Below are positions 1-22,604 of a stretch of 64,000 nucleotides of DNA, in pieces (position 1 is the stretch's first letter; the number at the start of each line of letters is the position of its first letter). This DNA is from an uncultured Eubacteriales bacterium (GTDB taxonomy: Bacteria; Bacillota; Clostridia; Oscillospirales; Oscillospiraceae), in the NCBI GenBank assembly GCA_900546255.1, contig URCB01000003.1, positions 1-64,000 on the forward strand, given 5' to 3'. The position numbers and the translations under genes are program-made. The notes under the pieces are model-generated. The model did not search any database. It was not told the DNA's origin and saw only the letters and a list, made by a program, of their open reading frames with translations.

Positions 1-3000
1 AATCCTGGGCCCAGTGGCCGGCAATGTCGGAGAAGAGGTCCCCTCCATCATAGGTAGCCTCGAAGAAGCGCACGGCGATGGTGGCAAACTCCGCTCTCGT
101 GATGTTGCCGTCGGGCTTAAAGGTGCCATCCTCGTAGCCGTCGATGATGCCGGCGTTGCTGAGGGTGGAAACGGCGTTGTTGTACCAAGCATCTTCGGAC
201 ACATCCGAGTAGTTGTTGGTCTGGCTCCAGAACTCGTTCCTGCTCTCGTCGGTGAGGAGGCGGAAGAAGATGGTGGCCACCTCGGCCCGGGTGATGTTCC
301 CCTCGGGTTTCACGTTGCCGTCGGGATAGCCCACGATGTAGGCGTAGTGGTCCTCGGTGTTCAGCTCAGGCTTGTCGGGGTCCACAGGGGGACGGATGGG
401 GGTGACGGGTTTCACGGGGGTTTCTGTGGTGTCCTCCCCGGTGGTGCCGCCGTCGGTGGTGACCGTAGCGGTGTTGGTGAGGGTGTCACCCGCGTCGCTG
501 CGGAGGACGATGTAGGTATAGGTGATGGTGACCATGTCATCGGGGGCAATCTCGTACTTGATGGTGTAGGTACCGCCATCGGCGACGTATGCCAACTCCC
601 CATCCACCTGGATGGCATCCTCATAGTTCCACAGGCTGTCCTCCACGGTTACCCCGGACAGGGTGGTGTTGCCGGTGTTGGTCACCTGAATGGTGTAGGT
701 CAGCTTGTCACCCACGGAGACCTTACCGCCGGTATAGTCGCTGCCGTTGACCTGGGAGAGGGACTTTTCCACCTTCAAACCGGGGGCATCGGGTTCAACC
801 TCTACCGTGACATTGTCACCAGGGTCGTTGTCACCGGGGAGGTCAATCACCGCGGTGTTGCTGACAGATGCTACGTCCTCGGGCACCGTGTAGTCATAGG
901 TGCAGGTCCAAGTGTCGCCCTGGTAAAGGGTACCCTGGAAGAGATAGCTTCCACCGGTTACGTCTGCCGTTGCCGCGCCAATCGTGATTGTCTCAACCTG
1001 ATTTTCCTGCCACAGGTTGTCGCTCACGGTAAAGGATGTTACGGTTTCCTCATTGTTGTTGGTAACGTTGATCGTATAGGTCAAAACATCACCAGGACGG
1101 ACTTTGCTGCCCTCTTGATAGGGCTCGCCATTGACCGACGTCAGCACCTTTTCGATGGACAGGTCGTAGCCGGTGACAGGGATGGTAATGGTATCGCTGT
1201 CACCAGGGCCATCTTCTGTCGTGGAAACGGTAGCTGTGTTTTCGATGGTGGTGTCGCCATCCTGCACGGTGTAGGTGTAAGTGCAGGTCCAGGTTTCATC
1301 AGGATCAAAGGTCGGGTCATCTGTGACACGAGGAACGATGGTCCAAATTCCGTTTTCAGGCAGATTCGTGAGATATTCTGTATCCCCAATCTTTTGCGTA
1401 ATCTGGGTAACCTTTCCGCTCGTCCACATAGTATCCGTCACGGTCACTGTGTCAAAAGAAGTGTTGCCCGTGTTTTCTACCTTTAGGGTGTAAGTGATGG
1501 TGTCGCCAACATCCACCGTGTCGCCTTCCTTCAGTTCCAAGCCCTTCACAGAGGCGGTCTTGGTGATGGAGATGGCGGGGTTGTCGGCTTCGGTGACGGT
1601 GGTGGTAACTTTGTCATCACTCTTATCGTTATCCAGGTCGGATTCGGCACTGTTGATGATAGTGCCTGTAACCGCATCTGCCTCTACAGCGGTATAGGAG
1701 ACGTTGATTGTCACGGGATCGCTATCTGCAGGCAAGTTAGCAATGGTAAACACTCTATTTTCGTACTGCACACCATCCGGCAGAGTATTGGTATTCAGTG
1801 TGCCGTTGCCGGTGAAAGTATCCGTGATCTTCACATCCGTCAAATCCACGTTGCCGGTATTGGTAACGGTGATGGTGTAGTTGATGGTGTCACCCACCTT
1901 GACGGAACCCTTATCGACCTCCTTGATAACGGACAGGGCGGGGTTCTCTACGGTGACCTTCGGAGGGTCATCGGGAGTATCTCTAGGCCCGTCCGTCACT
2001 TCAGCGGTCGCGGAGTTGATAATCTCCTTGCCTGCGTCAGTTGCAAGCACGGTATACTTGGCATACAGAATTTGAGATGTACTGGGGGCCATGCTTTCGA
2101 TGCTTGTTACAGCATCACCGGTGCAATCTTCACTCTCATACAGAGATAGCGTAGACGCAGTTCCGGCAATCGTCAGGGTATCCGACACGTCGATGTTTTT
2201 CAGTGTCGTGTTGCCGGTGTTCTTCACAGTGATGGTGTAGGTCAGCTCATCGTCCACCTTGACCATGCCGCTGTCGTAGTCAGCACCGTTTACCTTATCC
2301 AAGGTCTTGGTAACCTCCAGGCCAGGTACCTGTTTGGTGTAAGTGTTGGTCAGGTTGGCGGTAGCGGCCTTACCCGCAGTAACCGTAGCAGTGGCGTTCC
2401 CCGTTGTCTTAACAGAGTAACCCTCCACTTCATAGTTGCTCTCGGTCACGGTGTAAGTGCCGGGGGCGAGGTTATTGAGGTTCCAGGTGCCTGTTTCGCT
2501 GTAATAGGTAGTGTCACTTTCAACATTGTCAGTACCATATTTCAGCGTGGCGACAGTTTCACCACTGGAATTCGTCACCGCAATGGCGAAGTTCTCAGGC
2601 AGGCCTGCAAGCCCTTCTGGTAACTCCTTCACCGTCTTGGTCACGGTCAGGGTACCGGTTTTGGCCTGGTTTATGAGAACACCCTCATTCAGAGAGTTGC
2701 CATCCTGATCCATGCTGGTGGCCACATTACCTTTCGTTACGGTAACTGTAATATCTTCTGCGGGGTTATATCCTGGAGGTGTGCTTGTCTCTGTCAGGGT
2801 ATAGGTGTGGCCGGAGGGAATGTTGGTGAAGGAGACGGTGCCGTCCTGGTTAGACGTCGCGGGCATAGACCAGCCGACCTTATCCGCCGTGGTTAGGGTA
2901 AAGGTTACGCCTTCCAACTTCTTACCATCCGAGCCTTCTTTGGTGAAGGTCAGATCATCATAGAGACTCTTCACTGTGGGAACCAGAAACTCGCCGGTCA

Positions 3001-4402
3001 ATACGTTCCCCTCTTCATCACCATGCCAGTTCCCTTCTTCATCTTGGAACGCATACGTCAAGGTGGCCTTCTGGTTTACTGGAGCAGGATTCTCATTTGT
3101 AAACTGTTGGTTGACAAGATTGTCAAGCGTAACGGTATATTTAAGAGTATATCCCAGGACAGCGTATTCGTCGTCAGGCGTAGCACTCGAGATACTCTTA
3201 TCAATGGAGGAGTCTCTCACATTCCAAGTAAGCGTATCAGTGCCCGCATTATAGTCGGCATGATTGCCACCCAGATCTTTAAACTCCCCAAATGTCATAT
3301 TGGTTCCCATAGAATCCGTAACTTGGAACGCTTGGGTTGCCAAAGCAATTTGGCTCAACACACTATTGAAGTTATCAAGCAAATCGTCGGCATCTTCTCC
3401 GCCGTTGTAAGCCTCAGAGGAAAAGGCATCTAACCACTGACCGATCGTTGTTTTTTTAGTGGTTCGCGGATTAGCATCCCGCCAATCGTCAAAGGGTCGA
3501 GAATCCCATACAGAACCTCCTCTATTGGTCCGCCCAAAGCAAATGGAATACAACCGAGACTGCGTCGAGAGCTGTAAGATATCTTCCGCAATATCTCCCA
3601 CATCTTTTGCATCGTTCTCTGTGGTAAAGTTTCCTCCGCCTCGATCGCCCCAAATCCGTTCTGTCTCGTTCATATTGTCCTGATCAACATGATAGGTTGG
3701 TTGTCCATCCGTCAGCAGAACAGTATATAGATAATCAACACCATTCCTATCAGGACCCTTGGACAAATTGTTCCGCGCTAACATAAGGCCGGCTTCAATA
3801 TTTGTGCCGCCTGTACCATCATCACTTCTATATGCCCGCAAACTGTCAACGATTCTTTTTGCTTCGTTTCTACCCGTTTCGTTTGCAACATCGGTCCACT
3901 CAAGGCTTCTTACAGCATGACTACCAAAGGTTACGATAGAGAGCAAACACTTTGATTTTCCATCAGACAGGCTCGCAAATTCATCAATAAACTGTTTTGC
4001 TGCCTCTTTCACCAACTGGAGACGGGTCTTTCCCTGCCCCCCAGACTCAGTCATAGATGCAGACAAATCAATCACCAAAACCACCGCTGCATCGGGCGTT
4101 TCCGATGACAGTTCAGTCACTTTTTGATTTGTCTGTATCTGTAGCGTTACTTCGAACTCGTTCTCTTTTTCTGTCGTGTTCACCGTTTTGCTCATCGCAA
4201 CAACGGCATTGTCATCAAGCCCTGTTGCACCTTCAACACGGTGACCGTTTTTATCGTAGTAAACCGTTCCGCCCCCATCCACAATTTGGGTGTCGGAATT
4301 GCCATTGTCCCCGTTGGTTTTACTGACTCCCGTCGCCCCCACGGGCACAAGGGAAAGCGCCAAAGCCATCACCATAATGAGGGCAACCAATCGCTTCTTC
4401 AT
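1..4402 (-). CDS. Large secreted surface protein with VWA, Cna-B, DUF11 repeats and SLH domains (3' end outside window)
   Basis: About 1467 codons are visible and the frame is still open at the left edge. The start at 4402 follows AAGGAGG and encodes a signal peptide (MKKRLVALIMVMALALS...). In order I see a von Willebrand A domain (about residues 100-345, MIDAS DLSAS near 110, then DGTGGTN and LLTDGQP), a Cna-B/SpaA-type domain (about 480-560), a second transthyretin-like repeat (about 578-690), about five DUF11-type repeats with recurring 'TYTITVxNTGN' cores (about 690-1330), and two SLH motifs plus the start of a third (from about 1347). This is the plan of an adhesin held to the wall by SLH domains. 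The VWA half is clearly AT-richer than neighbouring genes. It lies 19 bp downstream of the zinc-ribbon gene and probably shares its transcript. Confidence 0.9.
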   Translation of the reverse strand, partial: MKKRLVALIMVMALALSLVPVGATGVSKTNGDNGNSDTQIVDGGGTVYYDKNGHRVEGATGLDDNAVVAMSKTVNTTEKENEFEVTLQIQTNQKVTELSSETPDAAVVLVIDLSASMTESGGQGKTRLQLVKEAAKQFIDEFASLSDGKSKCLLSIVTFGSHAVRSLEWTDVANETGRNEAKRIVDSLRAYRSDDGTGGTNIEAGLMLARNNLSKGPDRNGVDYLYTVLLTDGQPTYHVDQDNMNETERIWGDRGGGNFTTENDAKDVGDIAEDILQLSTQSRLYSICFGRTNRGGSVWDSRPFDDWRDANPRTTKKTTIGQWLDAFSSEAYNGGEDADDLLDNFNSVLSQIALATQAFQVTDSMGTNMTFGEFKDLGGNHADYNAGTDTLTWNVRDSSIDKSISSATPDDEYAVLGYTLKYTVTLDNLVNQQFTNENPAPVNQKATLTYAFQDEEGNWHGDEEGNVLTGEFLVPTVKSLYDDLTFTKEGSDGKKLEGVTFTLTTADKVGWSMPATSNQDGTVSFTNIPSGHTYTLTETSTPPGYNPAEDITVTVTKGNVATSMDQDGNSLNEGVLINQAKTGTLTVTKTVKELPEGLAGLPENFAIAVTNSSGETVATLKYGTDNVESDTTYYSETGTWNLNNLAPGTYTVTESNYEVEGYSVKTTGNATATVTAGKAATANLTNTYTKQVPGLEVTKTLDKVNGADYDSGMVKVDDELTYTITVKNTGNTTLKNIDVSDTLTIAGTASTLSLYESEDCTGDAVTSIESMAPSTSQILYAKYTVLATDAGKEIINSATAEVTDGPRDTPDDPPKVTVENPALSVIKEVDKGSVKVGDTINYTITVTNTGNVDLTDVKITDTFTGNGTLNTNTLPDGVQYENRVFTIANLPADSDPVTINVSYTAVEADAVTGTIINSAESDLDNDKSDDKVTTTVTEADNPAISITKTASVKGLELKEGDTVDVGDTITYTLKVENTGNTSFDTVTVTDTMWTSGKVTQITQKIGDTEYLTNLPENGIWTIVPRVTDDPTFDPDETWTCTYTYTVQDGDTTIENTATVSTTEDGPGDSDTITIPVTGYDLSIEKVLTSVNGEPYQEGSKVRPGDVLTYTINVTNNNEETVTSFTVSDNLWQENQVETITIGAATADVTGGSYLFQGTLYQGDTWTCTYDYTVPEDVASVSNTAVIDLPGDNDPGDNVTVEVEPDAPGLKVEKSLSQVNGSDYTGGKVSVGDKLTYTIQVTNTGNTTLSGVTVEDSLWNYEDAIQVDGELAYVADGGTYTIKYEIAPDDMVTITYTYIVLRSDAGDTLTNTATVTTDGGTTGEDTTETPVKPVTPIRPPVDPDKPELNTEDHYAYIVGYPDGNVKPEGNITRAEVATIFFRLLTDESRNEFWSQTNNYSDVSEDAWYNNAVSTLSNAGIIDGYEDGTFKPDGNITRAEFATIAVRFFEATYDGGDLFSDIAGHWAQD

Positions 4403-4421
4403 TGCGTGTCTTTCCTCCTTT

Positions 4422-5609
4422 TCAAAGGGTTTTCGTCTTTGCTAAGGTTTCTTCTCTGCTGCCTGCCCCGTCCTGGGACAGTCTCCGCGGGCCCCGCGGT
4501 TCCCCGGTGGGGATGGGGTACCGCACCTGGTTCCGCTGGCTCACCTTCCCGGCGCACACCGGGCAGCCGCAGTGCTTGGGGCCGGTGCGGGAATAGATCA
4601 CCGCCTTCCACACGTGGTTTTCCGGGCACCGCCACCAGGCCTTCTTGTGGCTGCCGGCGGTCACCATCTGGGGCGTCAGGGCTCCGTTGAGGTCCGGGTC
4701 CCACTCCGCTGCCACGGCAGGGTCCCGGGTGGCCAGGTCGTTGAACCCCGGCAGGACCTTGCGGCCGGCGCAGTAGGGGCAGTCGCTCCCCCAAGCCCGG
4801 GCACTGATGGCCGCCCGCCAGCTGTGGCCCAGCGGACACCGCCACCAGGCGGCGCGGTTGCTGTAGGAGGAGACCTGCTGGGGCGTGAGGGCCCCATTCT
4901 TCTCCCGGTCCCACTGCTGGGCCAGGTGGGGGAAGAGGGTGGCCAGGTCGTTCTCCCCAGGCACCACCTGCTTGCCGGCGCACACCGGGCAGCCTGCGCC
5001 TCCGCCAGCCCGGGAGGCAATGGCCGCCTGCCACACATGGCCCTTGGGGCATTGCCACCAGACCTTCCGGCGGCTGCCGGCCACCACGTCCTGGGGCCGC
5101 AGGTCCCCATTCTTGGTGGGGTGCCACTGGGCGGCCAGGTCGGGGTATTGGGCGGCCAAATCGTTGTCCCCGGGGCTGATCTGCCGGCTGGCGCAGTAGG
5201 GGCAGCCCGCCCCTGCCGCCCGGGACTTGACCCGGGCATCCCACACATGGCCGTGGGCACACTGCCACCACACCCGGCGGTTGCTGCCCCAGAGGACTTG
5301 GTCCGGGGTGAGGTCCCCGTTCTTGGTGGGGTGCCACTCCTTGGCCAGGTTAGGGAACCGGGAGGCCAGGTCGTTAAACCCCGGCCAGGGGCGCTTGCCG
5401 GCGCAGTAGGGGCAGCCGCTCTCTCCCCCGGCCCGGGTGTACACCGCCGCCTGCCACACATGGCCCTGTTCACAGCGCCACCAGAGTTTTTGACGGCTGC
5501 CGTAGGAGACGGTGTCCGGGGTCAGGGTGCCGTTCCGGCTCCCATCCCACTGGTCCAGCAGATCCCGCCGTTGGTGACGGGCGCAGTAGGCTGCTAAGCT
5601 TTCTCGCAT
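4422..5609 (-). CDS. Tandem zinc-ribbon (DUF4379-type treble-clef) repeat protein
   Basis: 395 aa with RBS AGGGAGGTGAAC before the start at 5609. The protein is almost entirely five tandem units of about 70 residues. Each carries 'W...NGxLTPxxV', 'WWxCxxGHxW' and 'CPYCAGK' motifs, giving two CxxC-like half sites plus a GH. This is the pattern of the DUF4379 'probable zinc-ribbon' family, often found alone or fused to restriction-type nucleases. No nuclease domain is visible here. The 47-residue tail is not repetitive. It ends 19 bp before the SLH protein gene, whose RBS lies in the gap, so the two are likely co-transcribed. Function unknown; nucleic-acid binding is a guess from the fold. Confidence 0.8.
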   Translation of the reverse strand: MRESLAAYCARHQRRDLLDQWDGSRNGTLTPDTVSYGSRQKLWWRCEQGHVWQAAVYTRAGGESGCPYCAGKRPWPGFNDLASRFPNLAKEWHPTKNGDLTPDQVLWGSNRRVWWQCAHGHVWDARVKSRAAGAGCPYCASRQISPGDNDLAAQYPDLAAQWHPTKNGDLRPQDVVAGSRRKVWWQCPKGHVWQAAIASRAGGGAGCPVCAGKQVVPGENDLATLFPHLAQQWDREKNGALTPQQVSSYSNRAAWWRCPLGHSWRAAISARAWGSDCPYCAGRKVLPGFNDLATRDPAVAAEWDPDLNGALTPQMVTAGSHKKAWWRCPENHVWKAVIYSRTGPKHCGCPVCAGKVSQRNQVRYPIPTGEPRGPRRLSQDGAGSREETLAKTKTL

Positions 5610-5650
5610 TGTTCACCTCCCTTCGCGTCTCGGCCCTTTTCGGGACAACC

Positions 5651-5672
5651 ACAGAATTTCGATTTTGTTGTA
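5651..5672. repeat. Left inverted repeat of putative invertible segment (IR-L)
   Basis: 22-bp sequence beginning ACAGAATTTCG that matches the reverse complement of 5906-5927 at all 22 positions. The match extends outward by AAC after one mismatch. The repeat has internal dyad symmetry (ACAACA-AAT...ATT-TGTTGT), as tyrosine-recombinase core sites do. It lies about 40 bp upstream of the zinc-ribbon gene start. Confidence 0.85.
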
Positions 5673-5733
5673 ATCCAACGGTTCCAGGGCCCCTCTCCCG
5701 ACCGGGATTTCCAAATTTTACCATTCTGTGGGC

Positions 5734-5801
5734 AAAAAAACGCACGAAAACAAGCTGGAGAAAATTTCGACGTTTCTCCGGCTTCCTTTCGTGCGTTTTT
5801 T
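5734..5801. terminator. Long bidirectional terminator-like hairpin inside the inverted-repeat segment
   Basis: AAAAAAACGCACGAAA...TTTCGTGCGTTTTTT with an inner GGAGAAA/TTTCTCC stem. A-run and T-run flank the stem, so it can act in both directions. In the present orientation it would stop leftward transcripts before the zinc-ribbon gene. Confidence 0.8.
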
Positions 5802-5812
5802 CCAGTTTTCTC

Positions 5813-5840
5813 TTGCGTTAGACGGGGCTTTTGTGATAAG
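5813..5840 (+). promoter_or_regulatory. Candidate rightward promoter within the invertible segment
   Basis: TTGCGT (5813-5818), a 16-bp gap, then GATAAG with an upstream TG (extended -10). As drawn it reads toward the 3' end of the recombinase, i.e. antisense to it. The match is moderate and the call depends on the inversion model. Confidence 0.4.
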
Positions 5841-5905
5841 CTATGTACAACCCCAAAGGTCCCCTGGATTTCTTCCAGGGATTCGGTTCTCTTTTCGGAG
5901 AAAAG

Positions 5906-5927
5906 TACAACAAAATCGAAATTCTGT
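5906..5927. repeat. Right inverted repeat of putative invertible segment (IR-R)
   Basis: Perfect reverse complement of 5651-5672. The extended repeat runs into the TAA stop (5930-5932) of the recombinase gene, so the recombinase lies just outside the segment and reads toward it. Confidence 0.85.
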
Positions 5928-5929
5928 TG

Positions 5930-6775
5930 TTATAAAACCAATCCTAGTCGTTCTACTTGGCGCTTATGCTCTGCGCCGCTCTCCATGATATAGATTCGTG
6001 TTGTCTCCACGCTGGCGTGGCCCAAAAGGTCCGCCAGCTTTGCTATGTCTTTCTCCAACGCATAAAAGGCCCGGGCAAAGAGGTGGCGGAAGTTGTGGGG
6101 GAAGACCCGCCTGGCCTCCACCCCCGCTGTCTGGCACAGGGTGTGCAGTGCCTTCCAGATGTTGGACCGGTCCATGGGCCGCCCTGTCCGGGTGACGAAC
6201 ACCGGCCCAGCGGTGATTCCCCGCTGCCGGCAGTACTTGGCCAGCACCCGGCACAGCTTGGGGGTGAGAAGGACCAGCCGGCCTTTCCCCTTCCCCTCCA
6301 CCCAAACCCGCCCTGTGCGGAGGGTTTGGACCGTCACATACTGCAGCTCCGAGATCCGCACCCCGGTGGAAGCCAAGGTCTCCATGAGGTAATAGAGCCG
6401 CCAGTTGCGCGCCTGTCTGGCCGCCGCCAGCAGGCGCAGATAGTCCCCCTTATGCAGCTCCCGGCCCGGGTCTCGGAAGAGTTCCCGCTGGCGGCGGAGG
6501 GCCCTCACCCGGCACTCCCCCCAGCCCAAGAACGAGAAAAAGGTGTTCAACGCCGCCAGTTTGCCGTTGACGGTGCTGGGGGCGTGCGCCTGAACCAGCG
6601 TGCGCTTCCAAGCCAACACGGTCTCCTTGGTCACCGGCCCTCCAGGGGGCAGGGTTTGGATAAAGGCCTGCACCTCTCGAAGGTACTTGGCGATGGTGGC
6701 CGGGCGGCGCTCTGCCGCCATCAAATACCGGCGGAAGGCAGCCATCGTCTCTGTGGTGATGATGTGTTGCGTCAT
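5930..6775 (-). CDS. Tyrosine recombinase (XerC/D-like integrase), probable invertase
   Basis: 281 aa, start at 6775 behind AAGGAGG. It has an N-terminal SAM-like core-binding domain (about 1-100) and a C-terminal catalytic domain with the complete active site: Arg in TGVRISEL (about 139), Lys in EGKGKGR (about 160), HxxR in PHNFRH (about 226-229), His in LLGHAS (about 251) and Tyr in RIYIME (about 260). The family cuts and rejoins DNA through a phosphotyrosine link. The gene stands alone, with no excisionase, phage genes or att-like tRNA. Its stop codon touches one of a pair of inverted repeats, which points to local inversion rather than integration. Confidence 0.9.
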   Translation of the reverse strand: MTQHIITTETMAAFRRYLMAAERRPATIAKYLREVQAFIQTLPPGGPVTKETVLAWKRTLVQAHAPSTVNGKLAALNTFFSFLGWGECRVRALRRQRELFRDPGRELHKGDYLRLLAAARQARNWRLYYLMETLASTGVRISELQYVTVQTLRTGRVWVEGKGKGRLVLLTPKLCRVLAKYCRQRGITAGPVFVTRTGRPMDRSNIWKALHTLCQTAGVEARRVFPHNFRHLFARAFYALEKDIAKLADLLGHASVETTRIYIMESGAEHKRQVERLGLVL

Positions 6776-6863
6776 GGTGGTTTCCTCCTTATGCGATTCT
6801 GCCTCTCAGTTTACCCGCTGACACAAGGCAGATGCACGGGGCTGCATCCTTTTCCCCAAAACA

Positions 6864-6895
6864 GCCAGCCGGCACGAGGTCTCGTGCCGGCTGGC
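6864..6895. terminator. Strong terminator after the leftward oxidoreductase cluster
   Basis: 15-bp perfect stem GCCAGCCGGCACGAG / CTCGTGCCGGCTGGC with a GT loop, flanked by AAA and TTT. It separates the SGNH gene (ends 6960) from the recombinase gene (starts 6775). Confidence 0.85.
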
Positions 6896-6959
6896 CGTTT
6901 GTCCATCTGGTTTCGGAACTGCGAGGAAACCCCTGCGGGCGATTCTCCCCGGGCCGTCC

Positions 6960-7622
6960 TCAGCCTTTTGTGGGCACCGTCCCTGCCATGGCCTGGTACC
7001 AACCGTCGGCAAAGGTGACCATGCCCGCCCGGTTGGGGTGGGTGCCGTTGACGGTCTCGTAGCCCCCGTCGATGGGGGTGAGGTACGCCAGGTGGACGGA
7101 AGGCCCGGCCTCCGCCACGCACTGGCGAAGCACGTCATTGTAGGCCGCCCGGTCCTCCAGGGTGGCGGGGTCCAAGTACCAGGGGCCCTGGGAGGGCTTG
7201 CCCACGGTGATGGTCCCCACCCAGATTTGGGCGGCGGGGTACTGGGCCGCCAGCTTTTGGACCATGTCCCGGCAGTCCCGGCGGAAGGCCCCCAGGTCCA
7301 CCCGGTGGGCCACGTCGTTGAGGCCGGTGCACACCAGGACCAGGTCCGGGGCCGCCGCCTCCGTGGCCAGGCTGCGGATCCGCCCGGGCAGGCAGGCGGC
7401 ATAGTTCCCTGCGCAGCTGATGTGGGAGCCGGCAAAGGAGTTGTTGACCAGCAATTGGCCCCCCAGCCGGTGGATCAGCTGCATCCACCAGGTGCCCTCC
7501 GGGGTGGCAAACCCCGCATAGGAGACATAGCTGGGGGAATAGAAACTGCCGATCTTGGGGGTGACCCCCTCAAAGGTGCTCCGATCATCCCCCAGGATGG
7601 AGATGTACTTGCGTTGTTCCAT
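6960..7622 (-). CDS. SGNH/GDSL-family hydrolase with an altered nucleophile motif
   Basis: 220 aa, cytosolic (no signal peptide), RBS AGAAGGA. Blocks of the SGNH fold are present: a first block ILGDDRSTFEG, a Gly block NNSFAGS, an Asn block TGLND, and the C-terminal DGG...GTHPN that supplies the Asp and His. In the usual GDS motif the third residue is the Ser nucleophile; here it is Asp (GDD), with a Ser two residues later. It may be inactive or use a shifted Ser. It is the last gene of the leftward cluster, 43 bp after the lipoprotein hydrolase gene. Substrate unknown. Confidence 0.8.
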   Translation of the reverse strand: MEQRKYISILGDDRSTFEGVTPKIGSFYSPSYVSYAGFATPEGTWWMQLIHRLGGQLLVNNSFAGSHISCAGNYAACLPGRIRSLATEAAAPDLVLVCTGLNDVAHRVDLGAFRRDCRDMVQKLAAQYPAAQIWVGTITVGKPSQGPWYLDPATLEDRAAYNDVLRQCVAEAGPSVHLAYLTPIDGGYETVNGTHPNRAGMVTFADGWYQAMAGTVPTKG

Positions 7623-7665
7623 GAAACATCCTTCTTTCTTGTTTGGGCCACCGGTTCTTCCCCGC

Positions 7666-8550
7666 TCACTGCTGGAAGAGCCAGCCCATCACCGCCGGGT
7701 CCGAGGCGAAGGCCCCGCCGCCGGCGTGCTGATCCGTGTATCCCTGCTGGGTGAAGTAGGCCTGGTCCCGCACATCCAGCACCAGCAGGGCATCGATTGC
7801 CTCCTGGGACAGCCCCTTCCCCTCATACAGGGCCCGGAGTTGGGCATAGGCGGTGCGGAGGGGTTCCGAACCGTAGTAGCTGTCCGCCTCCCCCATCGCC
7901 AGGTAGACCGGGACCTCTGCCTGGGCCACTGCCGCCAGGTCCCCGTCCCACTGGGTGCTCACCGCCAGGTAGGCGGTGTACAGGTCCGGCCGCAGTCCAA
8001 GCACCAGGGAGCCGGTCTCCCCGCCGCCGGAGTACCCCTCCAGGTACACCCGGTCCGGATCAATGGCATACTGGGCCAGGAGGTGCTCGGTCAGGGCGAT
8101 GGTCTGGCGGGCGGAGGTCTCCCCCCAATCGCTGAGTTGGGGGGCCGCCACGATGAGGTCTGGGAGGTAGTCCTGGGCGGTGAAGGCAAAGTCCTCCCCG
8201 TACAGGTTGGCCCCCACCCCTTGGAAGTAGAGCCCCTCATACCCCGGCAGGGTCACAAAGAGGGCGCAGGGGATGGTCCCATCGTACCCCTCTGGGAGGT
8301 GGAGGTGGTAGTGGATGTCCCCCTCCTGGGGGTGGTGGAGGACGTTGTCCATCTGAAAGCCCCGGTAGGTCTCCGTCCCCTGGGTCACGGCCCCGTCCTG
8401 GGCAGCGGACTGAATGGCCTCCTGTGCCGGGGCTTCCGCCCCCGCCTGGGCGGGTTCCGCCGTCCCGCAGGCGGAGAGCCCCAGCAGCAAGGCAGCTAGA
8501 AGGAGGGCCAGAGAGGGGATCCTGCCCCTGTCGTGCGCTCCCCTTCTCAT
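7666..8550 (-). CDS. Exported lipoprotein, alpha/beta hydrolase (esterase-like)
   Basis: 294 aa from the ATG at 8550, which overlaps the stop of the upstream gene (ATGA) and has AAGGAG upstream. A longer start 14 codons earlier is less likely. The lipoprotein signal ends in the lipobox LSAC, so the protein should be membrane-anchored outside the cell. The nucleophile elbow is GYSGGGE (about residue 180). A 'GEADSYYG' stretch and the C-terminal 'DQHAGGG' could give the acid and His. It resembles predicted peptidase/esterase hydrolases. Substrate unknown. Confidence 0.8.
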   Translation of the reverse strand: MRRGAHDRGRIPSLALLLAALLLGLSACGTAEPAQAGAEAPAQEAIQSAAQDGAVTQGTETYRGFQMDNVLHHPQEGDIHYHLHLPEGYDGTIPCALFVTLPGYEGLYFQGVGANLYGEDFAFTAQDYLPDLIVAAPQLSDWGETSARQTIALTEHLLAQYAIDPDRVYLEGYSGGGETGSLVLGLRPDLYTAYLAVSTQWDGDLAAVAQAEVPVYLAMGEADSYYGSEPLRTAYAQLRALYEGKGLSQEAIDALLVLDVRDQAYFTQQGYTDQHAGGGAFASDPAVMGWLFQQ

Positions 8551-9275
8551 GGCGCCGTCCTCTCCTTCCCCCGGGCGGTGTACCGCAGCCACAACCCGTC
8601 CCCCGCCAGGGGTTTGGCCTCCGCCAGGGAGAGGGCCACCGGGCCGCGGTTTGGCAGGAACCCGCCCCGCTCAAAGCTGGACACGGCGGTGGTGGACCCG
8701 TCCGCCACGGGGGCCACCACCAGGCTCACCTCGTCCACGCATCCAGCTTGGAGGAAGGACCAGTTCACCACCCCGCCGCCGGCCACCATCAGCCGCTGGA
8801 CCCCGAACCGGGCCGCCAGCTTCTCCAGCAGCAGGGGGCAGTCCAGCTGCTCCTTTCCGGCGAAGAGGTAGGACACCCCCACCTGCCGCAGGTAGGCCAG
8901 GTAGGCCGGGTCCACCTGCTCCGTCACCGCCTGGATGACGTGGGCGGCGGGGCGGCCCCTCCGCGCCAGCACCGGCCCGGAAAAGGCCAGAGACCCCTTG
9001 GGGTCCACCGAGACCACAAACTGGCCCATCCGCCGGCCCTGGGGGTTCACATAGTCCTCCTTGGCCAGGGGCGCCCCCTGCCGGGGCAGGCGGGGGGCCG
9101 GGCCGTCGGCAAAGCCACCCAGCATGGTGGTGGTGCCGTAGAGGATGGCCTAGCAGCGGTAGTCCTCCCGAAGGGCCCCGTAGGCCGCCAGGGCAGGGGC
9201 GGCTTCCGGGGCGGCAAAAAAGTCCCCGTCGATCTTCCCATCCAGGGAGACAAACATATGACAGACTGTAAACAT
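8547..9275 (-). pseudogene. RibD_C/dihydrofolate-reductase-like oxidoreductase interrupted by an in-frame TAG
   Basis: The start at 9275 has RBS GGGAGG and opens MFTVCHMFVSLDGKIDG, the N-terminus of RibD C-terminal-domain reductases. After DYRC a TAG (9150-9152) breaks the frame. The same frame then continues AILYGTTTMLGG to the normal end at 8547 (about 243 codons in all). The intact paralog at 27648-28388 aligns along the whole length. A single C-to-T change in a CAG codon would explain the stop. Downstream translation could start at 9125, but that would lack the substrate/cofactor-binding N-terminus. A nonsense-mutated allele is most likely. Confidence 0.8.
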
Positions 9276-9313
9276 GGTTTCCTCCCATCTCCCCGGGCGC
9301 CTGGGCCCGGGGG

Positions 9314-10054
9314 TCACTGTTCTCTGCTGGGACGCACCACCAGGTCGGACACGTCCACGTTCTCCGGCTGGGCCAGGGCGTAGCACACCGCCTCCGCAAT
9401 GACCTCCGGCGCCAGGCCCACCGCCTGGTAGAAGGCCTCCACCGCCGTCTTGGTCTCCGAGGGGGCGATGGTGTGGAGGAGTTCGGTCTGCACCGCGCCG
9501 GGGTAGAGGATGGTGGTGCGAAGGTTGGTCCCCTCCAGCACCGCCTCGGCCCGGAAGGACTCCAGCAGAGCCCGGACGAAGTGCTTGGTGCCGCAGTAGA
9601 CCGCGTTCCCCGGCACCGCCCGGGTTCCCGCCACGGAGGAGGTCACCAGGATGTGGCCCCGCTTCTGGGCGATCATCTCCGGCAGGACCGCTGCCATGGC
9701 GTAGAGAACTCCCTTGATGTTGACCTCCACCATGGCCGTCCAGTCCTCCACCTTCCATTCCGAGAGGTTCCCTGCGGGCATCACCCCTGCGTTGGCAAAG
9801 AGGGCATCGACCTTCCCAAACCGTTCCCGGGCCAGGGAGACCAGAGCCTCCATATCCTCCCGGCGGGTGACGTCTGAGGGCAGGAAGGCGACCTGCTCCG
9901 CCCCCAGCTGGGCGGCCAGGGCCTCCAGCCGCTCCTTCCGCCGGGCGCTGAGGACCACCTTCGCCCCCTGCGCCACCAACCGCCGGGCGGTGGCCTCCCC
10001 GATGCCCGAGGAGGCTCCGGTGATGAGGACGACTTTTCCAGCCAGCTGCTCCAT
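9314..10054 (-). CDS. SDR-family NAD(P)-dependent oxidoreductase
   Basis: 246 aa, RBS AAGGGGG before the start at 10054. Classical short-chain dehydrogenase: cofactor motif TGASSGIGE (about residues 14-22), an Arg in SARRKER that suggests NADP preference, NAG (about 90), the catalytic Ser in TSSVAG and Tyr-Lys in YCGTK (about 155-159). Closest in style to YdfG-type 3-hydroxy acid/serine dehydrogenases. It sits 12 bp downstream of the flavin reductase gene in the same leftward unit. The exact substrate cannot be read from the sequence. Confidence 0.9.
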   Translation of the reverse strand: MEQLAGKVVLITGASSGIGEATARRLVAQGAKVVLSARRKERLEALAAQLGAEQVAFLPSDVTRREDMEALVSLARERFGKVDALFANAGVMPAGNLSEWKVEDWTAMVEVNIKGVLYAMAAVLPEMIAQKRGHILVTSSVAGTRAVPGNAVYCGTKHFVRALLESFRAEAVLEGTNLRTTILYPGAVQTELLHTIAPSETKTAVEAFYQAVGLAPEVIAEAVCYALAQPENVDVSDLVVRPSREQ

Positions 10055-10066
10055 CGTAGCGCCCCC

Positions 10067-10624
10067 TTACTTCAACTGGGCCCCGTCCTGGAAGGCGCTG
10101 CCGACCCGCTCTCCCAGCACATGGTATCCGTTGTGGACGGGCTCATAGGCGATGGGGCGGAACTTGGCAAAGTCAATCTTGCCATCGGCCCCCAGAACGG
10201 CCTCGTCGGCGCTGACATTGACGATCTGGCCGATGAGGTTGCCCTCCTCGGTGATTTTGACCAGTTTACACTCCAGGGCCACCGGGAACTCCTTCAGCAG
10301 GGGGGCATCCACAAAGGGGCTCTTCTCCCCGTGGAGGCCGGCCTTGGCCAGCTTGTCCGGCTGGTCCCGGCCGGAGACCAGGCCCACATAGTCCGCGGGG
10401 ACCACATGGGCCGCGTCGGCAAAGTGCACGGTGAAGGCACCCCGTGCCTTGAGGTTGCCGGTGGTCTTGTGGTTGGGGCTCAGGCAGAGGACCACCTGGT
10501 CCCCCCCATACAGGCCGCCCCAGGCGGCATTCATGGCGTTGGGGGTGCCGTCCTCGTTGTAGGTGCCGATGATGAGCACCGGCAGGGGATAAAACCAAGG
10601 CTTTACGCCGAAATTTTTACGCAT
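10067..10624 (-). CDS. Flavin reductase-like (FMN-binding split-barrel) protein
   Basis: 185 aa, RBS AAGGAGG. The opening WFYPLPVLIIGTYNEDG, then NAMNAAWGG and CLSPNHKT, matches the flavin-reductase domain family, which binds FMN and reduces flavin or small acceptors with NAD(P)H. The protein is cytosolic. It lies between an aldo/keto reductase and an SDR gene, spaced 14 and 12 bp, consistent with one operon of redox enzymes. Confidence 0.85.
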   Translation of the reverse strand: MRKNFGVKPWFYPLPVLIIGTYNEDGTPNAMNAAWGGLYGGDQVVLCLSPNHKTTGNLKARGAFTVHFADAAHVVPADYVGLVSGRDQPDKLAKAGLHGEKSPFVDAPLLKEFPVALECKLVKITEEGNLIGQIVNVSADEAVLGADGKIDFAKFRPIAYEPVHNGYHVLGERVGSAFQDGAQLK

Positions 10625-10638
10625 ACTGCGCCTCCTTG

Positions 10639-11484
10639 TTACTTCTGGCTGTCCACCGGGGGCACCATGGCCACATACTGCCGAAGCAGTTCCGGGGTAC
10701 TGGTGTAGTAGTTCTTCTGCCGGTCTAGGGCGGCAATCTGGGCCATCTCCTGGTCGGTGAGGGCAAAGTCGAAGAGGGTGAAGTTGTCCCGGATGTGGCC
10801 GGGGTTCTTAGAGCCGGGGATCACAATGTTGCCGTCCTGGATGTGCCAGCGGAGGATAACCTGGGCGCTGGTCTTGCCGTACTTCTGGCCCAGCTGGGCA
10901 AAGAGAGGCTCCTCCAGCAGGGTTTTGTCCCCGTGGCCCAGGGGGTACCAGGCTTGGAGGACGATGCCCTCGTTCTCCAGGAACCCTTCGAGGTCCTTCT
11001 TCTGGGAGTAGGGGTGGGCCTCGGTCTGCAGCACGGTGGGTTTCACCTCGCAGAGGGAGAGGATCTCCTGGATCTGGGCCTGGCTAAAGTTAGACAGGCC
11101 GATGGCCCGCACCTTCCCCTCCTTGTAGGCTGCCTCCATCTGGCGGTAACCGGCCACATAGTTGCCGGCGGGCTGGTGGATGAGGAGGAGGTCAATATAG
11201 TCCGTACCCAGCCGGGCCAGGGTCTTGTCCACCGCGTCGGCCTGCTGGTAAAAGCTGGGCCACAGCTTGGTCTCCAGGAAGATGTCCTCCCGCTTCAGGC
11301 CGGACCCCTGCATGGCCCGGCCCACGGCCTTCTCGTTGAGGTAGGCGTTGGCGGTGTCGATGAGGCGGTACCCATCCTCCAGGGCGTGGAGAACGGCGGA
11401 CTCCGCCTCGTCCGGGGAGAGGAGAAAGGTGCCGATGCCCGCCATGGGCATTTTGATGCCGTTGTTTAGGATTGCGTATTCCAT
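10639..11484 (-). CDS. Aldo/keto reductase (2,5-diketogluconate reductase-like)
   Basis: 281 aa. The start at 11484 (MEYAILNNG) is chosen because it has an AGGAAG RBS and matches the paralog at 28467. The open frame extends further upstream without support. The catalytic tetrad is present: Asp and Tyr in DTANAYLNE, Lys in ETKLWPS and His in LLIHQP. The C-terminal IPGSKNPGHIRDN is the NADPH-binding loop. It reduces aldehydes or ketones with NADPH; the natural substrate is not evident. Confidence 0.9.
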   Translation of the reverse strand: MEYAILNNGIKMPMAGIGTFLLSPDEAESAVLHALEDGYRLIDTANAYLNEKAVGRAMQGSGLKREDIFLETKLWPSFYQQADAVDKTLARLGTDYIDLLLIHQPAGNYVAGYRQMEAAYKEGKVRAIGLSNFSQAQIQEILSLCEVKPTVLQTEAHPYSQKKDLEGFLENEGIVLQAWYPLGHGDKTLLEEPLFAQLGQKYGKTSAQVILRWHIQDGNIVIPGSKNPGHIRDNFTLFDFALTDQEMAQIAALDRQKNYYTSTPELLRQYVAMVPPVDSQK

Positions 11485-11521
11485 TGTCTTAACTTCCTTT
11501 CCTGTGTGATGTGATATGGGA

Positions 11522-12598
11522 TCAGTCGTTGTAAATGACCGGCTTGATGAGGCTGCGGTCGTGCTGGAGGAAGAGGTCCATGGCCGCAGGGATCTGGTCC
11601 AGCCCGTGGAAGCGGTGGGTGATGAGCTTTTCCGGCGCCACCCGGCCCCAGGCGATGAGCTGGGCCATCCGGGACATCCACAGCCGGCCGCCTGCGCAGC
11701 CCACCCCTTTGATGGTCTTGTCCCCATAGCCGAAGCCCCACACCTCGGGGGCGATGGGGATGGGCTGGCCGCTGAAGTAGGCGCTGAGGTTGACCAGGGT
11801 GCCCCCCTTTTTCAGGAGGGAGAGGCCCTTGCTCAGCTCCGCCTCGCCGCCGCCGCAGAGGACCACCCCATCCACCGGGCCGCCGTTGGCCGCCAGGATC
11901 TGCTGGAGGTAATCCTCGTGGTGGTAGTCCACCAGGTGGGTGGCGCCATAGGCCTGGGCCACCTCGAAGCAGCCCTTCCGGGAGCCGATGGCAAAGACCT
12001 TCCCTGCCCCGCGGAGGACCGCCGCCCGCACTGCCATAAGGCCCACCGGGCCGATGCCCAGGACTGCCACCGAGGCCCCAAAGGCCGGGTCCAGCTGGCG
12101 CACCCCCTCAAAGGCGGTGCACATCATGTCCGGCACCATCACTGCCTGCTCCAGGGTGACCCCCTCGGGGATGTGGGCCAGGTTCATGTCCGCGTCCCGA
12201 ATATAGTACTCCTCCACGAAGGAGCCGCCCCGCTGGGGATCATCCACCCCGGCGTAGAGGTTGTCCTGGCGCTGCTTGCCCCAGCCGTCCTGGGCCTCCA
12301 GGCTCCGCCAATGGGGCATGACGGCGCAGACAATCACCCGGTCCCCCACGTGGAAGTCCTGGACCTCGGCCCCCACTTTGGTGATCTCGCCGCACATCTC
12401 GTGGCCCATGGCCTTCCCCACCAGATAGGGCAGGGAGGCGCACCCCGTGGCGCACAGGTGGGCATCGATGGTGCAGGGGGACCAGATCAGCGGACGGATC
12501 AGGGCCCCGGTGGGGCAGGGTTCCTCCGGCACGGGGCAGCGGTCAGAAACCGCCATGGTATTCTCCCCCGTGATCACAACGCCTTTGCAATACTTCAT
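11522..12598 (-). CDS. Zinc-dependent NADP-type secondary alcohol dehydrogenase (TbADH/CbADH-like)
   Basis: 358 aa. The start at 12598 (MKYCKGVV) has RBS GAAAGGAG. The catalytic zinc region shows Cys in SPCTIDAH and GHEMCGE, with a later acidic ligand. The four-Cys structural zinc loop is absent, as in the tetrameric secondary alcohol dehydrogenases of Thermoanaerobacter and Clostridium beijerinckii. Shared stretches such as DADMNLAHIPEG and VLGIGPVGLMAV (Rossmann motif) support this subgroup. It likely interconverts ketones and secondary alcohols. It lies 37 bp upstream of the AKR gene. Confidence 0.88.
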   Translation of the reverse strand: MKYCKGVVITGENTMAVSDRCPVPEEPCPTGALIRPLIWSPCTIDAHLCATGCASLPYLVGKAMGHEMCGEITKVGAEVQDFHVGDRVIVCAVMPHWRSLEAQDGWGKQRQDNLYAGVDDPQRGGSFVEEYYIRDADMNLAHIPEGVTLEQAVMVPDMMCTAFEGVRQLDPAFGASVAVLGIGPVGLMAVRAAVLRGAGKVFAIGSRKGCFEVAQAYGATHLVDYHHEDYLQQILAANGGPVDGVVLCGGGEAELSKGLSLLKKGGTLVNLSAYFSGQPIPIAPEVWGFGYGDKTIKGVGCAGGRLWMSRMAQLIAWGRVAPEKLITHRFHGLDQIPAAMDLFLQHDRSLIKPVIYND

Positions 12599-12636
12599 CC
12601 TTGGACAACTCCTTTCTGCAGCCGGGGGCGCCGCCC

Positions 12637-12921
12637 TCACAGGTCATAGCGCCGCACCTGGCTGTCTGTGATATAGGTTGCTTTCAGTTTCCCCCAGCGC
12701 AGGGTGGCCGGGTGGTTCAGGTGGGCCTGGAAGGCCGCTTCATCCTCCCAGGCATCGGTGAGGCAGAGCCCTCCCGGGTCCTGGATGGGGAGGGAAAAGG
12801 CGAAGAACACATTCCCCGGCAGCCCCTGGAGCTGGTCTGCGATCCCCTCCTGCACCAGGTCTGCCACCAAGGCGTCTCGCTGCCCGGGCTTGACCCGGTA
12901 GGTGTTGACGCACAGGATCAT
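12637..12921 (-). CDS. Antibiotic biosynthesis monooxygenase (ABM) domain protein
   Basis: 94 aa. Small dimeric alpha/beta barrel family: 'VNTYRVKPGQRDAL' opening, 'AWEDEAAFQAHLNHP' helix, typical length about 95. Members act as quinol monooxygenases or heme/quinone-handling enzymes without a cofactor. The ATG overlaps the stop of the upstream SDR gene (ATGA), so the two are translationally coupled. Confidence 0.8.
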   Translation of the reverse strand: MILCVNTYRVKPGQRDALVADLVQEGIADQLQGLPGNVFFAFSLPIQDPGGLCLTDAWEDEAAFQAHLNHPATLRWGKLKATYITDSQVRRYDL

Positions 12922-13763
12922 GGTCTCTCCCCCTTCCCTCCATCGGACTGCCGGCTGACCCCCTGCCAGGCCTGGAGTTCCCGGAGCCGGCCCTCCCAGG
13001 CGGCCTGGGCGGCCTCCACCGCGTCGCTGCCCAGGAAGAGACGGAAGGGGGCGTTCTCCCGCAGCAGGGTCTCCACGATGAGTTGGCCGCCCCGGTCCGG
13101 GTCCCCGGGCTGGTTGGCCGGCAGGGGGCCGGGGCCCTTCCGGTACCGGTCTCCGATGGGGTCATAGGCAGCCAGATGGGTGGAGGGCTCCGCCAGGCGG
13201 TGGCCATAGAACCCCGTGCGGAAGGCCCCCGGCTCCACCAGCATCACCCGGATGCCGAAGGCGGCCACCTCCTGGGCCAGGGCCTCGGAGGCCCGCTCCA
13301 GGGCGGCTTTGGCGGCGGAGTAATCTCCGTTGCCCAGGGCGCCCCGCACCCCGCCGATGGAGGTGACGTTGCAGATCCATCCCCCGCCCCTCTCCCGCAT
13401 ACCGGGGAGGGTGGCCCGGATGAGGTCCATGGGCCCGAAGAAGTTGACCGCAAAGAGCTCTGCCACCTGATGGGGCTGGCTCTCTTCGATGGCGGCCCGG
13501 TAGCCATGACCGGCGTTGTTCACCAGCACGTCGATGCCGCCGAAGGCGCGCTGGGTCTCCGCCACCACCCCGGGGATGCTGTCTGCGTGGCTGAGGTCCA
13601 GAGGAAGGGCCAGGGCCCGGCCGGGGTAAGCTACGGTAAAGGCTGCCAGGGCGGCCGGGTCCCGGGCGGTGAGGGCGGCCCGGTCTCCCCGGGCCAGGAC
13701 GGCTTTGGCGATCCCCTTCCCCAGGCCGCTGGAGCAGCCGGTGATGAGCCAAGTTCTCTCCAT
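12918..13763 (-). CDS. SDR-family oxidoreductase
   Basis: 281 aa from the ATG at 13763 (GAGGAGG upstream). Cofactor motif TGCSSGLGKG (about 8-17), NNAGHG (about 85), Ser in VTSIGG and catalytic Tyr-Lys in YSAAK (about 150-154). The C-terminal extension beyond the SDR core resembles 'YusZ-like' oxidoreductases of about 280 aa. It overlaps the ABM gene by 4 nt and is preceded by an FMN reductase gene at 11 bp. Confidence 0.88.
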   Translation of the reverse strand: MERTWLITGCSSGLGKGIAKAVLARGDRAALTARDPAALAAFTVAYPGRALALPLDLSHADSIPGVVAETQRAFGGIDVLVNNAGHGYRAAIEESQPHQVAELFAVNFFGPMDLIRATLPGMRERGGGWICNVTSIGGVRGALGNGDYSAAKAALERASEALAQEVAAFGIRVMLVEPGAFRTGFYGHRLAEPSTHLAAYDPIGDRYRKGPGPLPANQPGDPDRGGQLIVETLLRENAPFRLFLGSDAVEAAQAAWEGRLRELQAWQGVSRQSDGGKGERP

Positions 13764-13774
13764 GGGACCCCTCC

Positions 13775-14407
13775 TCACCGGATATAGTTGGTGTTGATCC
13801 GGGCCTCCTGCTCCGGCAGGGGGAGGCCGGCTTGGCGGCCCGCCTGGATGCAGCCCAGCAGCCAAGCCATGTTCCGGCCCAGCACCCGCATGATCTGCAT
13901 CCCCTCCTCGTCCTGGCGGACCTCCTCCGGGGTTTTGCCGTGGACCATGTTCCAGTACCGGGAGGAGGGGATGGGCATCTGGGCATAGAGGAGGTATTTG
14001 TTCAGCTGGTCCAGGGTGGCGGTGGTCCCCGCCCGGCGGGCAGACACCACCACCGCCCCGGGCTTGAAGGCAAAGCGCCCCAGCCCAGCGCACTGGTCGG
14101 TGTAGAAGGCCCGGTCCAGGAAAGCGCTCATGGAGGCCGCCGCCGAGGCAAAGTGGACCGGCGCGCCAAAGACGAAGCCGTCATAGTCCTTGGCCGCTTC
14201 CAGGAATTCGTTCACCCGGTCCTGGTAGTGGCAGGCCCCGTGGGTGGCGCAGCAGCCGCAGCCCAGGCAGCCGGTGAGAGGGCGGTTGCCGATCCAAAAC
14301 CAGTCGGTGTGCACCCCCTCCCCCTCCAGGGCCCGGCCCACCTCCTCCAGGGCCGCGTGGGTGCAGCCGTTTTTATGGGGGCTGCCGTTGACAAGCAGGA
14401 CCTTCAT
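13775..14407 (-). CDS. NADPH-dependent FMN reductase / flavodoxin-fold iron-sulfur-type protein
   Basis: 210 aa. The N-terminus VLLVNGSPHKNGCT is the phosphate-binding loop of the flavodoxin-like NADPH:FMN reductases. A compact Cys group (GCLGCGCC...GAC, about residues 47-58) is like that of iron-sulfur flavoproteins. FGAPVHFASAAASM is the second flavin loop. It probably transfers electrons from NAD(P)H to small acceptors. The ATG overlaps the AKR stop (ATGA). Confidence 0.87.
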   Translation of the reverse strand: MKVLLVNGSPHKNGCTHAALEEVGRALEGEGVHTDWFWIGNRPLTGCLGCGCCATHGACHYQDRVNEFLEAAKDYDGFVFGAPVHFASAAASMSAFLDRAFYTDQCAGLGRFAFKPGAVVVSARRAGTTATLDQLNKYLLYAQMPIPSSRYWNMVHGKTPEEVRQDEEGMQIMRVLGRNMAWLLGCIQAGRQAGLPLPEQEARINTNYIR

Positions 14408-15423: not shown

Positions 15424-15511
15424 CGTCTTCATCTCCTTATCTTATACGGGTATTCTACCCCCGGGCCGCCGGGCAGAAGTCTCCGTTGGTTCATCAGTGA
15501 AAAGCCAAAGG

Positions 15512-16877: not shown

Positions 16878-16910
16878 CGCTACACGCCTTCTTTCTTGGT
16901 CTTTGCGGAA

Positions 16911-20240: not shown

Positions 20241-20316
20241 CGCACACAGTCCTTTCCCAAGGGTTCCTTCGGCGCCGTTCGTTGCTGGAATGCGGGCCTT
20301 CCCTTGGTCTGCCTTC

Positions 20317-20345
20317 AGTATAAAAACCCCCAGGGGATTTGTGAA
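20317..20345 (-). promoter_or_regulatory. Promoter for the Fe-ADH/flavodoxin-lipoprotein operon
   Basis: TTCACA (20340-20345), 17 bp, TATACT (20317-20322) on the minus strand. The spacer contains CCCCTGGGGG, an inverted repeat that may bind a regulator. Confidence 0.65.
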
Positions 20346-20413
20346 GTTTCCATTCGTTATGGAGCCCTTACCCAAAGGTTTACAGTGGTTTTCCCCAGCC
20401 ATCCAAAGGGAAA

Positions 20414-20440
20414 GGCGGAGACCCCAAAGGGGTCCCCGCC
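20414..20440 (-). terminator. Hairpin terminator after the lipoprotein hydrolase gene
   Basis: GGCGGAGACCCC / GGGGTCCCCGCC with an AAA loop and one mismatch, followed leftward by TTTCCCTTT. The rest of 20241-20502 holds the Fe-ADH promoter and no gene that I can see. Confidence 0.6.
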
Positions 20441-20502
20441 GGGTGGAAACCGGGTTTGCGGATGGAGAGACAGGGCCTTCTGCCTCGAGGCGCAAGCGGC
20501 CG

Positions 20503-21516: not shown

Positions 21517-21556
21517 CCCAATCACCTGTCTTTCGTTGGTTTTACCCCTATCATAG

Positions 21557-21590
21557 AAAAAACGAGACTTCCCGAGAAGTCTCGTTTTTT
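21557..21590. terminator. Bidirectional terminator between LysR and lipoprotein hydrolase genes
   Basis: AAAAAACGAGACTT / AAGTCTCGTTTTTT with loop CCCGAG. It ends the LysR transcript coming from the right. Confidence 0.9.
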
Positions 21591-21612
21591 TATGCCCTAG
21601 TTACCCCTGGGT

Positions 21613-22518: not shown

Positions 22519-22574
22519 GGGGCGTCCCCTTCCCTTCTGCCGCCGGCGGAGCCGGGGGCGTTTTCTTGCCGTCT

Positions 22575-22604
22575 ATTGTAGGGGGCGCGCCCCCGCCCTG
22601 TCAA
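22575..22604 (-). promoter_or_regulatory. LysR gene promoter with palindromic operator in the spacer
   Basis: TTGACA (22599-22604) and TACAAT (22575-22580) spaced by 18 bp. The 14-bp perfect palindrome GGGGGCGCGCCCCC (22581-22594) fills most of the spacer, so a bound protein would block polymerase. Confidence 0.75.

Follow-up and report, generated by a model that had tools for sequence, protein, structure and literature searches.

A probable phase-variation module built from a tyrosine recombinase and an adjacent promoter segment in an uncultured Eubacteriales bacterium

A 64,000-nucleotide stretch of DNA from the genome assembly of an uncultured Eubacteriales bacterium (hereafter the window) very probably carries a self-contained phase-variation module, in which a tyrosine recombinase inverts an adjacent promoter segment controlling an operon for a DUF4379 protein and a large surface protein, the window most likely holding the OFF orientation. 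Promoter inversion of this kind had been put forward in an earlier note on the window, and it is strongly supported by comparative evidence, including an assembly, G373, in which both orientations are found. For the window itself, we infer that the recombinase acts on these sites, that the segment inverts in this species and that the segment regulates the operon. The features discussed are as follows.

1..4402, minus strand: large surface protein (VWA, SpaA, DUF11 repeats, SLH), 19 nt past the DUF4379 gene and extending beyond the window
4422..5609, minus strand: DUF4379 (treble-clef zinc finger repeat) protein, 395 aa, proposed first operon gene (PF14311, 5 repeats, 1.8e-103)
5647..5672, no strand: operon-proximal arm, with the 18-nt core 5651-5668, ACAGAAT-TTCG-ATTTTGT
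5673..5905, no strand: proposed invertible segment, 233 bp, bounded by both arms, with a comparable layout in 98 relatives
5715..5743, minus strand: rival weak promoter candidate facing DUF4379, TGGTAAAAT; if real, the window is ON
5735..5801, no strand: terminator-like bidirectional hairpin (-38.5 / -38.7 kcal/mol for the two strands) that may insulate the operon from the recombinase
5813..5842, plus strand: candidate promoter facing the recombinase, TTGCGT-18-TAAGCT with extended TG; a weak, putative match
5842..5847, plus strand: TATGTA motif where the candidate -10 ends, recurring across the module family
5906..5931, no strand: recombinase-proximal arm, with the 18-nt core 5910-5927
5930..6775, minus strand: tyrosine recombinase of 281 aa, the putative switch invertase (Pfam Phage_integrase)
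6859..6900, no strand: hairpin 5' of the recombinase gene, where the preceding GDSL gene probably terminates

The switch locus in the window

Read along the minus strand, the order of the locus is recombinase (6775-5930), arm, 233 bp, arm, DUF4379 gene (5609-4422), 19 nt and then the surface protein gene from 4402. The perfect 22-bp inverted repeats first noticed here turned out to be the inner part of a 26-nt pair (5647-5672 / 5906-5931) that is complementary at 25 of 26 positions, and the dyad symmetry reported inside them was borne out, with the 18-nt core of each arm forming an internal dyad of six out of seven pairs. None of 100 shuffled sequences held such an arm repeat, and a search of the rest of the 64 kb at up to three mismatches gave no further copy of the arm; a search of the window against Rfam likewise gave no match. 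Elsewhere in the window, at 51708-51748, lies a possible terminator, a perfect inverted repeat of 18 bp around a 5-nt loop.

The gene beside the second arm is, as had been claimed, a complete tyrosine recombinase gene (Phage_integrase, 4.2e-25) whose stop codon (5930-5932) touches the repeat, sharing with it the outer two bases of the arm. In an alignment of 21 sequences K162, K164, H227, R230, H253 and Y262 are invariant and R140 nearly so, all of which we take to be catalytic residues. The protein scored 21.6 and 19.0 bits with the fim-type invertase models PRK09870 and PRK09871 (NCBIfam), far below the curated cut-offs of 221 and 222, and 106 to 118 bits with the XerC, XerD and XerA equivalog models, again below their cut-offs of 220 to 335. 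Among the related recombinases, six (P0008, P0010, P0015, P0024, P0032 and P0033) have common N-terminal halves joined to differing C-terminal halves, or the reverse, which reflects either real mosaicism or short chimeric contigs.

On the far side of the other arm, the zinc-ribbon gene and very large VWA/SLH protein of the earlier description were confirmed as a DUF4379 protein and a VWA/DUF11/SLH protein, the latter with matches to VWA_2 (6.6e-13), DUF11 (1.1e-44), SpaA (6.9e-17) and SLH (3e-23), and with two SLH stretches at its visible end, before the edge of the window.

Between the arms, the hairpin at 5735-5801 folds with almost equal stability on the two strands (-38.5 and -38.7 kcal/mol; folding z of -6.2 and -6.5) and has A and T runs at both flanks, and its bidirectional character, proposed from the start, is upheld. 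The further suggestion that this hairpin is what keeps the genes OFF was dropped, as bidirectional folding implies a block in both orientations. Instead, since it would stop read-through from the recombinase in either orientation, we regard it as a probable insulator. A second, small terminator-like hairpin followed by a T-rich stretch lies at 5864-5886 on the plus strand, on the way from the candidate promoter to the recombinase-side arm; in the ON orientation it would fall within the 5' leader of the operon.

The promoter itself is less distinct. A consensus promoter scan of 4300-7000 found none, and a matrix trained on the family gave 1.8 bits for the direction facing the recombinase and 1.9 bits for that facing DUF4379, scores that 47% of 300 shuffles reach. 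The promoter-like element claimed for the segment thus survives as two weak candidates that score no better than shuffled sequence, and an attempt to read the orientation of the window from promoter hexamers alone was rejected on the same numbers.

In the mechanism that we propose, the recombinase would pair the two inverted sites and exchange strands at their asymmetric four-nucleotide centre (N4, TTCG in the window), so that the 233-bp segment is inverted. In the ON orientation, the outward-facing promoter of the segment would drive DUF4379 and the large surface protein; in the OFF orientation, it would face the 3' end of the recombinase gene, and the bidirectional hairpin would bar recombinase transcripts from the operon in both states.

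A conserved module among recombinase relatives

Relatives were gathered by a scan of genome contigs with the 21-sequence recombinase alignment, which returned a sample of at least 80 loci with recombinases 43-60% identical, and by whole-genome searches, giving 122 distinct recombinase loci once duplicates had been removed by gene sequence; those with the conserved module are 43-70% identical to the window recombinase. Thirteen of the 122 were untestable, as the contig ends less than 250 bp past the stop codon. A repeat pair of at least 15 paired bases is found just past the recombinase in 98 of the 109 testable loci; its first arm starts no more than 30 nt ahead of the stop codon's end and no more than 77 nt beyond it, and the pair spans 215-550 bp (median 272). 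It went undetected in 11, among them L066, which has a perfect 14-nt pair. In a control on the first loci, leaving out five duplicates (L081-L085), the pair was found in 73 of 84 loci, as against 1 of 691 windows taken from other parts of these loci. The earlier note had named absence of the repeats from relatives that keep the recombinase, together with a lack of inverted reads, as grounds for giving up the switch; their presence in 98/109 speaks for it.

Outside the switch locus, a comparison of window positions 20000-30000 with 400 genomes gave three matches below 1e-300, namely G402 (80-82%), G243 (77-79%) and G199 (74%), and the six best matches to 6780-16900 among 16 genomes were at 69-74%; none of the genomes of the genus around G003 was closer to the window. 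Relatives are also located on plasmids and virus-like contigs. Virus-like contigs gave no relative when searched with the window recombinase alone and no match to the 22-nt arm, but a search with the recombinase alignment found 80 loci, of which 14 (L190-L203) were checked for repeats: nine of the ten with the closest recombinases (40-56%) have the pair, two of these sharing an identical cassette, the tenth contig stops at the recombinase stop codon, and the next four (25-34%) lack a pair. Translations read by eye point to an SPFH protein, a DNA methyltransferase and a GGDEF-bearing response regulator among their cargo. In L195, a methyltransferase-like gene (by eye) stands behind an ON-looking cassette, possibly a phase-variable methylation gene on a mobile element. 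A plasmid of Pusillibacter faecalis encodes a recombinase of 51% identity, followed by a 704-nt gap and an SLH protein.

The arms share a common architecture. A palindromic 7-4-7 core with at least five of seven pairs, roughly ACAnAAT-N4-ATTnTGT, lies at the arm centre in 90 of 98 loci, ACATAAT being the commonest half-site. In 89 of the 90 loci with a core, the two arms carry an identical N4 (shuffled mean 2.0, largest 7), agreement that is partly built in, as the pair search demanded eight consecutive matching bases. The variety of N4 between loci is unaffected by this; 60 forms occur among the 90, and none is palindromic (chance 0.003 at 1 in 16). Crossover sites of tyrosine recombinases have conserved half-sites and an asymmetric centre that needs to match between partners. 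Conserved half-sites around an arm-matched asymmetric N4 are thus the look expected of such sites, and the asymmetry of N4 would fix the outcome as inversion. With an N4 mostly private to its locus, several modules that share a genome may have a means of escaping cross-recombination.

Within the cassettes, promoters are far clearer in relatives than in the window. Among 96 of the 98 cassettes (L004 and L029, with runs of N, were left out), 56 have a best promoter score of at least 10 vs 4 of 96 after shuffling. Clear promoters face the recombinase, the orientation that we call OFF, in 44 cassettes and the cargo (ON) in 7; 45 are uncalled. Alternative thresholds gave OFF/ON counts of 60/16, 57/12, 38/5 and 20/1 (n=96), the first-pass calls were 46 OFF and 10 ON of 73 with the window included, and a looser matrix trained on 51 cassettes called 73 OFF, 21 ON and 2 neither, its training rows included. 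The distance from the end of the -10 to the outer edge of the faced arm has a median of 57 nt (32-70) in OFF cassettes and 66 nt (53-78) in ON cassettes. The strongest hairpin sits off-centre: with L119 also left out for its over-long arms and the window counted among 45 uncalled cassettes, the promoter side is the longer one in 38 of 44 OFF-called cassettes, 6 lacking this usual asymmetry, and in all 7 ON cassettes. In 33 of 69 cassettes the sequence TATGTA occurs in the stretch from the -10 to the arm (shuffled mean 1.7, largest 6). It lies on the recombinase side in 28/44 OFF and 1/7 ON cassettes and on the cargo side in 1/44 OFF and 3/7 ON. Placed shortly past the -10, it could serve as an operator or as a 5' RNA element. 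TATGTA is present even where the half-site differs from ACATAAT. In many cases an assembly is enough to tell whether a module is ON or OFF.

The genes beyond the outer arm are diverse. According to first-pass calls, 59 of 72 loci have a first ORF there that points away from the switch. In a domain scan (cut-off 1e-5) of 62 downstream proteins from 70 loci, with L086, L087 and L089 left out and the first same-strand ORF used where the nearest lay on the other strand, the families listed, the best 25 of 31 and the best 25 of 43, include SLH and List_Bact_rpt in at least 9 proteins each, LRR_5 in at least 6 and dockerin in at least 2, as well as single cases of SpaA, Cna_B, EAL, GGDEF, MCP, sugar transferase and helicase. 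Besides the window, G402, G373 and Intestinimonas (L026) have a DUF4379 gene behind the switch, and in G243 one stands where a contig ends. Located between switch and surface protein, this gene is a partner that recurs. In G373, three further DUF4379 genes (L173:4916, L174:328 and L175:4460) lie right behind the ends of apparent SLH surface-protein genes, and no switch-like repeat was found upstream of them, where L174 offers only 327 bp; DUF4379 may therefore be a general partner of SLH proteins.

Evidence for inversion and the state of the window

Cassettes of different loci can be matched to one another in either orientation. Of 17 rows of matches of at least 45 nt, 10 are same-strand and 7 opposite-strand. 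The latter include two modules of one genome (L119/L127; 75% over 109 nt, 1.3e-15) and a pair called ON and OFF (L021/L035; 72% over 109 nt, 9.7e-11). Among the loci of virus-like contigs, L192/L199 (73% over 126 nt) also match on opposite strands. The pairs L005/L015, L015/L058, L013/L033 and L071/L125 were rejected as proof of inversion, as they match mainly in the hairpin, which can be aligned on either strand.

A stronger case comes from G373, a member of the genus-level group of G243. Its contig C62 (L152) runs through the recombinase, an arm, the promoter end of the cassette, the other end, the second arm and then an inverted copy of the end of the recombinase gene, so that both cassette ends are joined to the recombinase and the contig closes on a 90-nt palindrome of arm and recombinase 3' end. 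On contig C71, a DUF4379 gene and an arm are followed by the promoter end of C62, matched over 93 nt at 98.9%, as against 77-81% for other G373 cassettes. As one and the same promoter end adjoins the recombinase on C62 and DUF4379 on C71, both orientations have occurred there. Should G373 be a composite assembly, the orientations could stem from different strains, which would still mean inversion. A comparison of orientation among related genomes, recommended in the earlier note, has thereby found both within one assembly. A 40-nt tail test found a palindromic contig end in L152 alone among the 122 loci; such ends may serve as markers of inversion in assemblies.

Contig ends are informative more widely. 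In G243, a contig with the recombinase (70%) breaks off at the centre of a site, as does another contig, with DUF4379 (72%), and to judge from these ends the two probably represent the two sides of one locus; the DUF4379 contig has one stop reported inside the gene and also encodes a VWA/SLH-type protein. Across the 122 loci, 13 contigs end within 250 bp past the recombinase stop vs 2 within 250 bp before its start (binomial 0.007), and at 250-1000 bp the trend is opposite, with 6 past the stop vs 14 before the start. Five of the 13 early ends (L020, L079, L090, L095 and L126) fall in or at an arm. As assemblers break where reads disagree, contig ends at the arm fit inversion in living populations, with the caveat that repeats alone can break contigs too.

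These observations bear on two other accounts of the locus. The repeats might be the binding or transposition sites of a mobile element that encodes the recombinase, with no promoter switch involved, in keeping with the relatives on plasmids and virus-like contigs; we consider this most improbable, given that the recombinase lies outside the repeats, that the cassettes contain a promoter and hairpin, that the first gene beyond reads away in 59/72 loci and that both orientations occur. A locked relic, no longer inverting in the window's species, would account for the weak promoter match, but it too is very unlikely with a full-length recombinase that keeps its conserved residues, perfect 22-nt arms with matching N4, and contig breaks at the site in G243, one of the two nearest genomes.

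If the switch is real, the window could still be in the ON state, the minus-strand candidate at 5743-5715 driving the operon. This candidate has an extended -10 (TGGTAAAAT) and 1.9 bits vs 1.8, and the end of its -10 is about 68 nt from the outer arm edge, close to the median of 66 (53-78) of ON cassettes, while the OFF candidate, at about 89 nt, is beyond the 32-70 spanned by OFF cassettes (window distances worked out by hand). Its -35, however, falls in the tail of the hairpin. The hairpin asymmetry of the window cassette, +42, has the sign found in 38/44 OFF cassettes, being negative in 7/7 ON, and the motif (TACATA, that is TATGTA on the other strand) lies on the recombinase side only, as in 28/44 OFF and 1/7 ON cassettes. 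The TTGTGATAAGCT of the window's recombinase-facing candidate also differs by one letter from the TTGTGATAAACT of the promoter of L128, a module of G243. These three features favour OFF; we judge that the window is probably OFF and that the ON reading is unlikely. Of the original claim of an OFF orientation, the direction stands as probable from asymmetry and TATGTA side, and the promoter score, at 1.8 vs 1.9 bits, is indecisive.

Recombinase feedback and known switches

The -10 of an OFF promoter lies some 30-90 nt inside the near arm edge and faces the 3' end of the recombinase gene. We tentatively suggest, as an idea somewhat doubtful at present, that the OFF promoter transcribes antisense into its own recombinase gene, lowering recombinase supply and making OFF sticky, and that ON, being unopposed, returns readily. 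Such feedback would account for the surplus of OFF cassettes, 44 to 7 (binomial 1.2e-7, for loci that are not independent) or 73 to 21 by the looser matrix, a surplus that selection could also produce. In the window, the small hairpin at 5864-5886 might end the OFF antisense transcript. Invertases near invertons are described as generally unlikely to be under the control of the inverton promoter (PMC11892184), and, among the papers listed by a literature search, none was evidently on antisense control of a recombinase from an invertible promoter, to judge by titles and the openings of abstracts. With this antisense geometry, the bias of phase-variable switches becomes open to direct test. On the feedback reading, one portable device with crossover codes private to each locus would serve many kinds of cargo. 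The module can be searched for by sequence, as recombinase, ACAnAAT-N4-ATTnTGT pair, hairpin and outward promoter, in Clostridia, plasmids and virus-like contigs.

The module resembles the E. coli fim switch, as commonly described, in which tyrosine recombinases (FimB/FimE) turn a 314-bp promoter segment, fimS, between ON and OFF. There, fimE adjoins fimS and the supply of FimE depends on orientation. The window has one recombinase beside its switch, and this lies far below the fim-type models (21.6 of 221 bits for PRK09870), so that, judged by sequence, the module works like fim from outside the fim-type invertase subfamily.

Another likeness is to RecV of Clostridioides difficile, a clostridial tyrosine recombinase described as inverting short regulatory segments, one of them upstream of a cell-wall protein gene (PMC7241687, PMC5903667). 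By these descriptions RecV inverts several switches, whereas each recombinase of the present family is accompanied by a neighbouring pair that has an N4 of its own, and for cwpV and flagella a post-transcriptional mechanism has been suggested, in contrast to the promoter inversion proposed for the window (PMC7241687, PMC5903667).

A survey of a defined gut community describes inverton group 139, with 33 invertons, 32 of them in Clostridia, linked with the tyrosine recombinases of invertase group 35 (PMC11892184). As in the window module, a tyrosine-type recombinase/integrase adjoins the inverton and is classed as 'non-regulatable', that is, not inverton-driven, and the coordinates of the Clostridium sp. 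D5 inverton give 25-nt arms about 206 bp apart (PMC11892184). The covarying N4, TATGTA and antisense transcription set out here do not figure in the survey passages compared (PMC11892184). For the group 139 invertons of Intestinimonas butyriciproducens and Clostridium sp. D5, the survey reports that both orientations are supported by reads and shift with passage or growth surface (PMC11892184), and it is to this published Clostridia group, with its invertase group 35, that the window module, compared by description, probably belongs.
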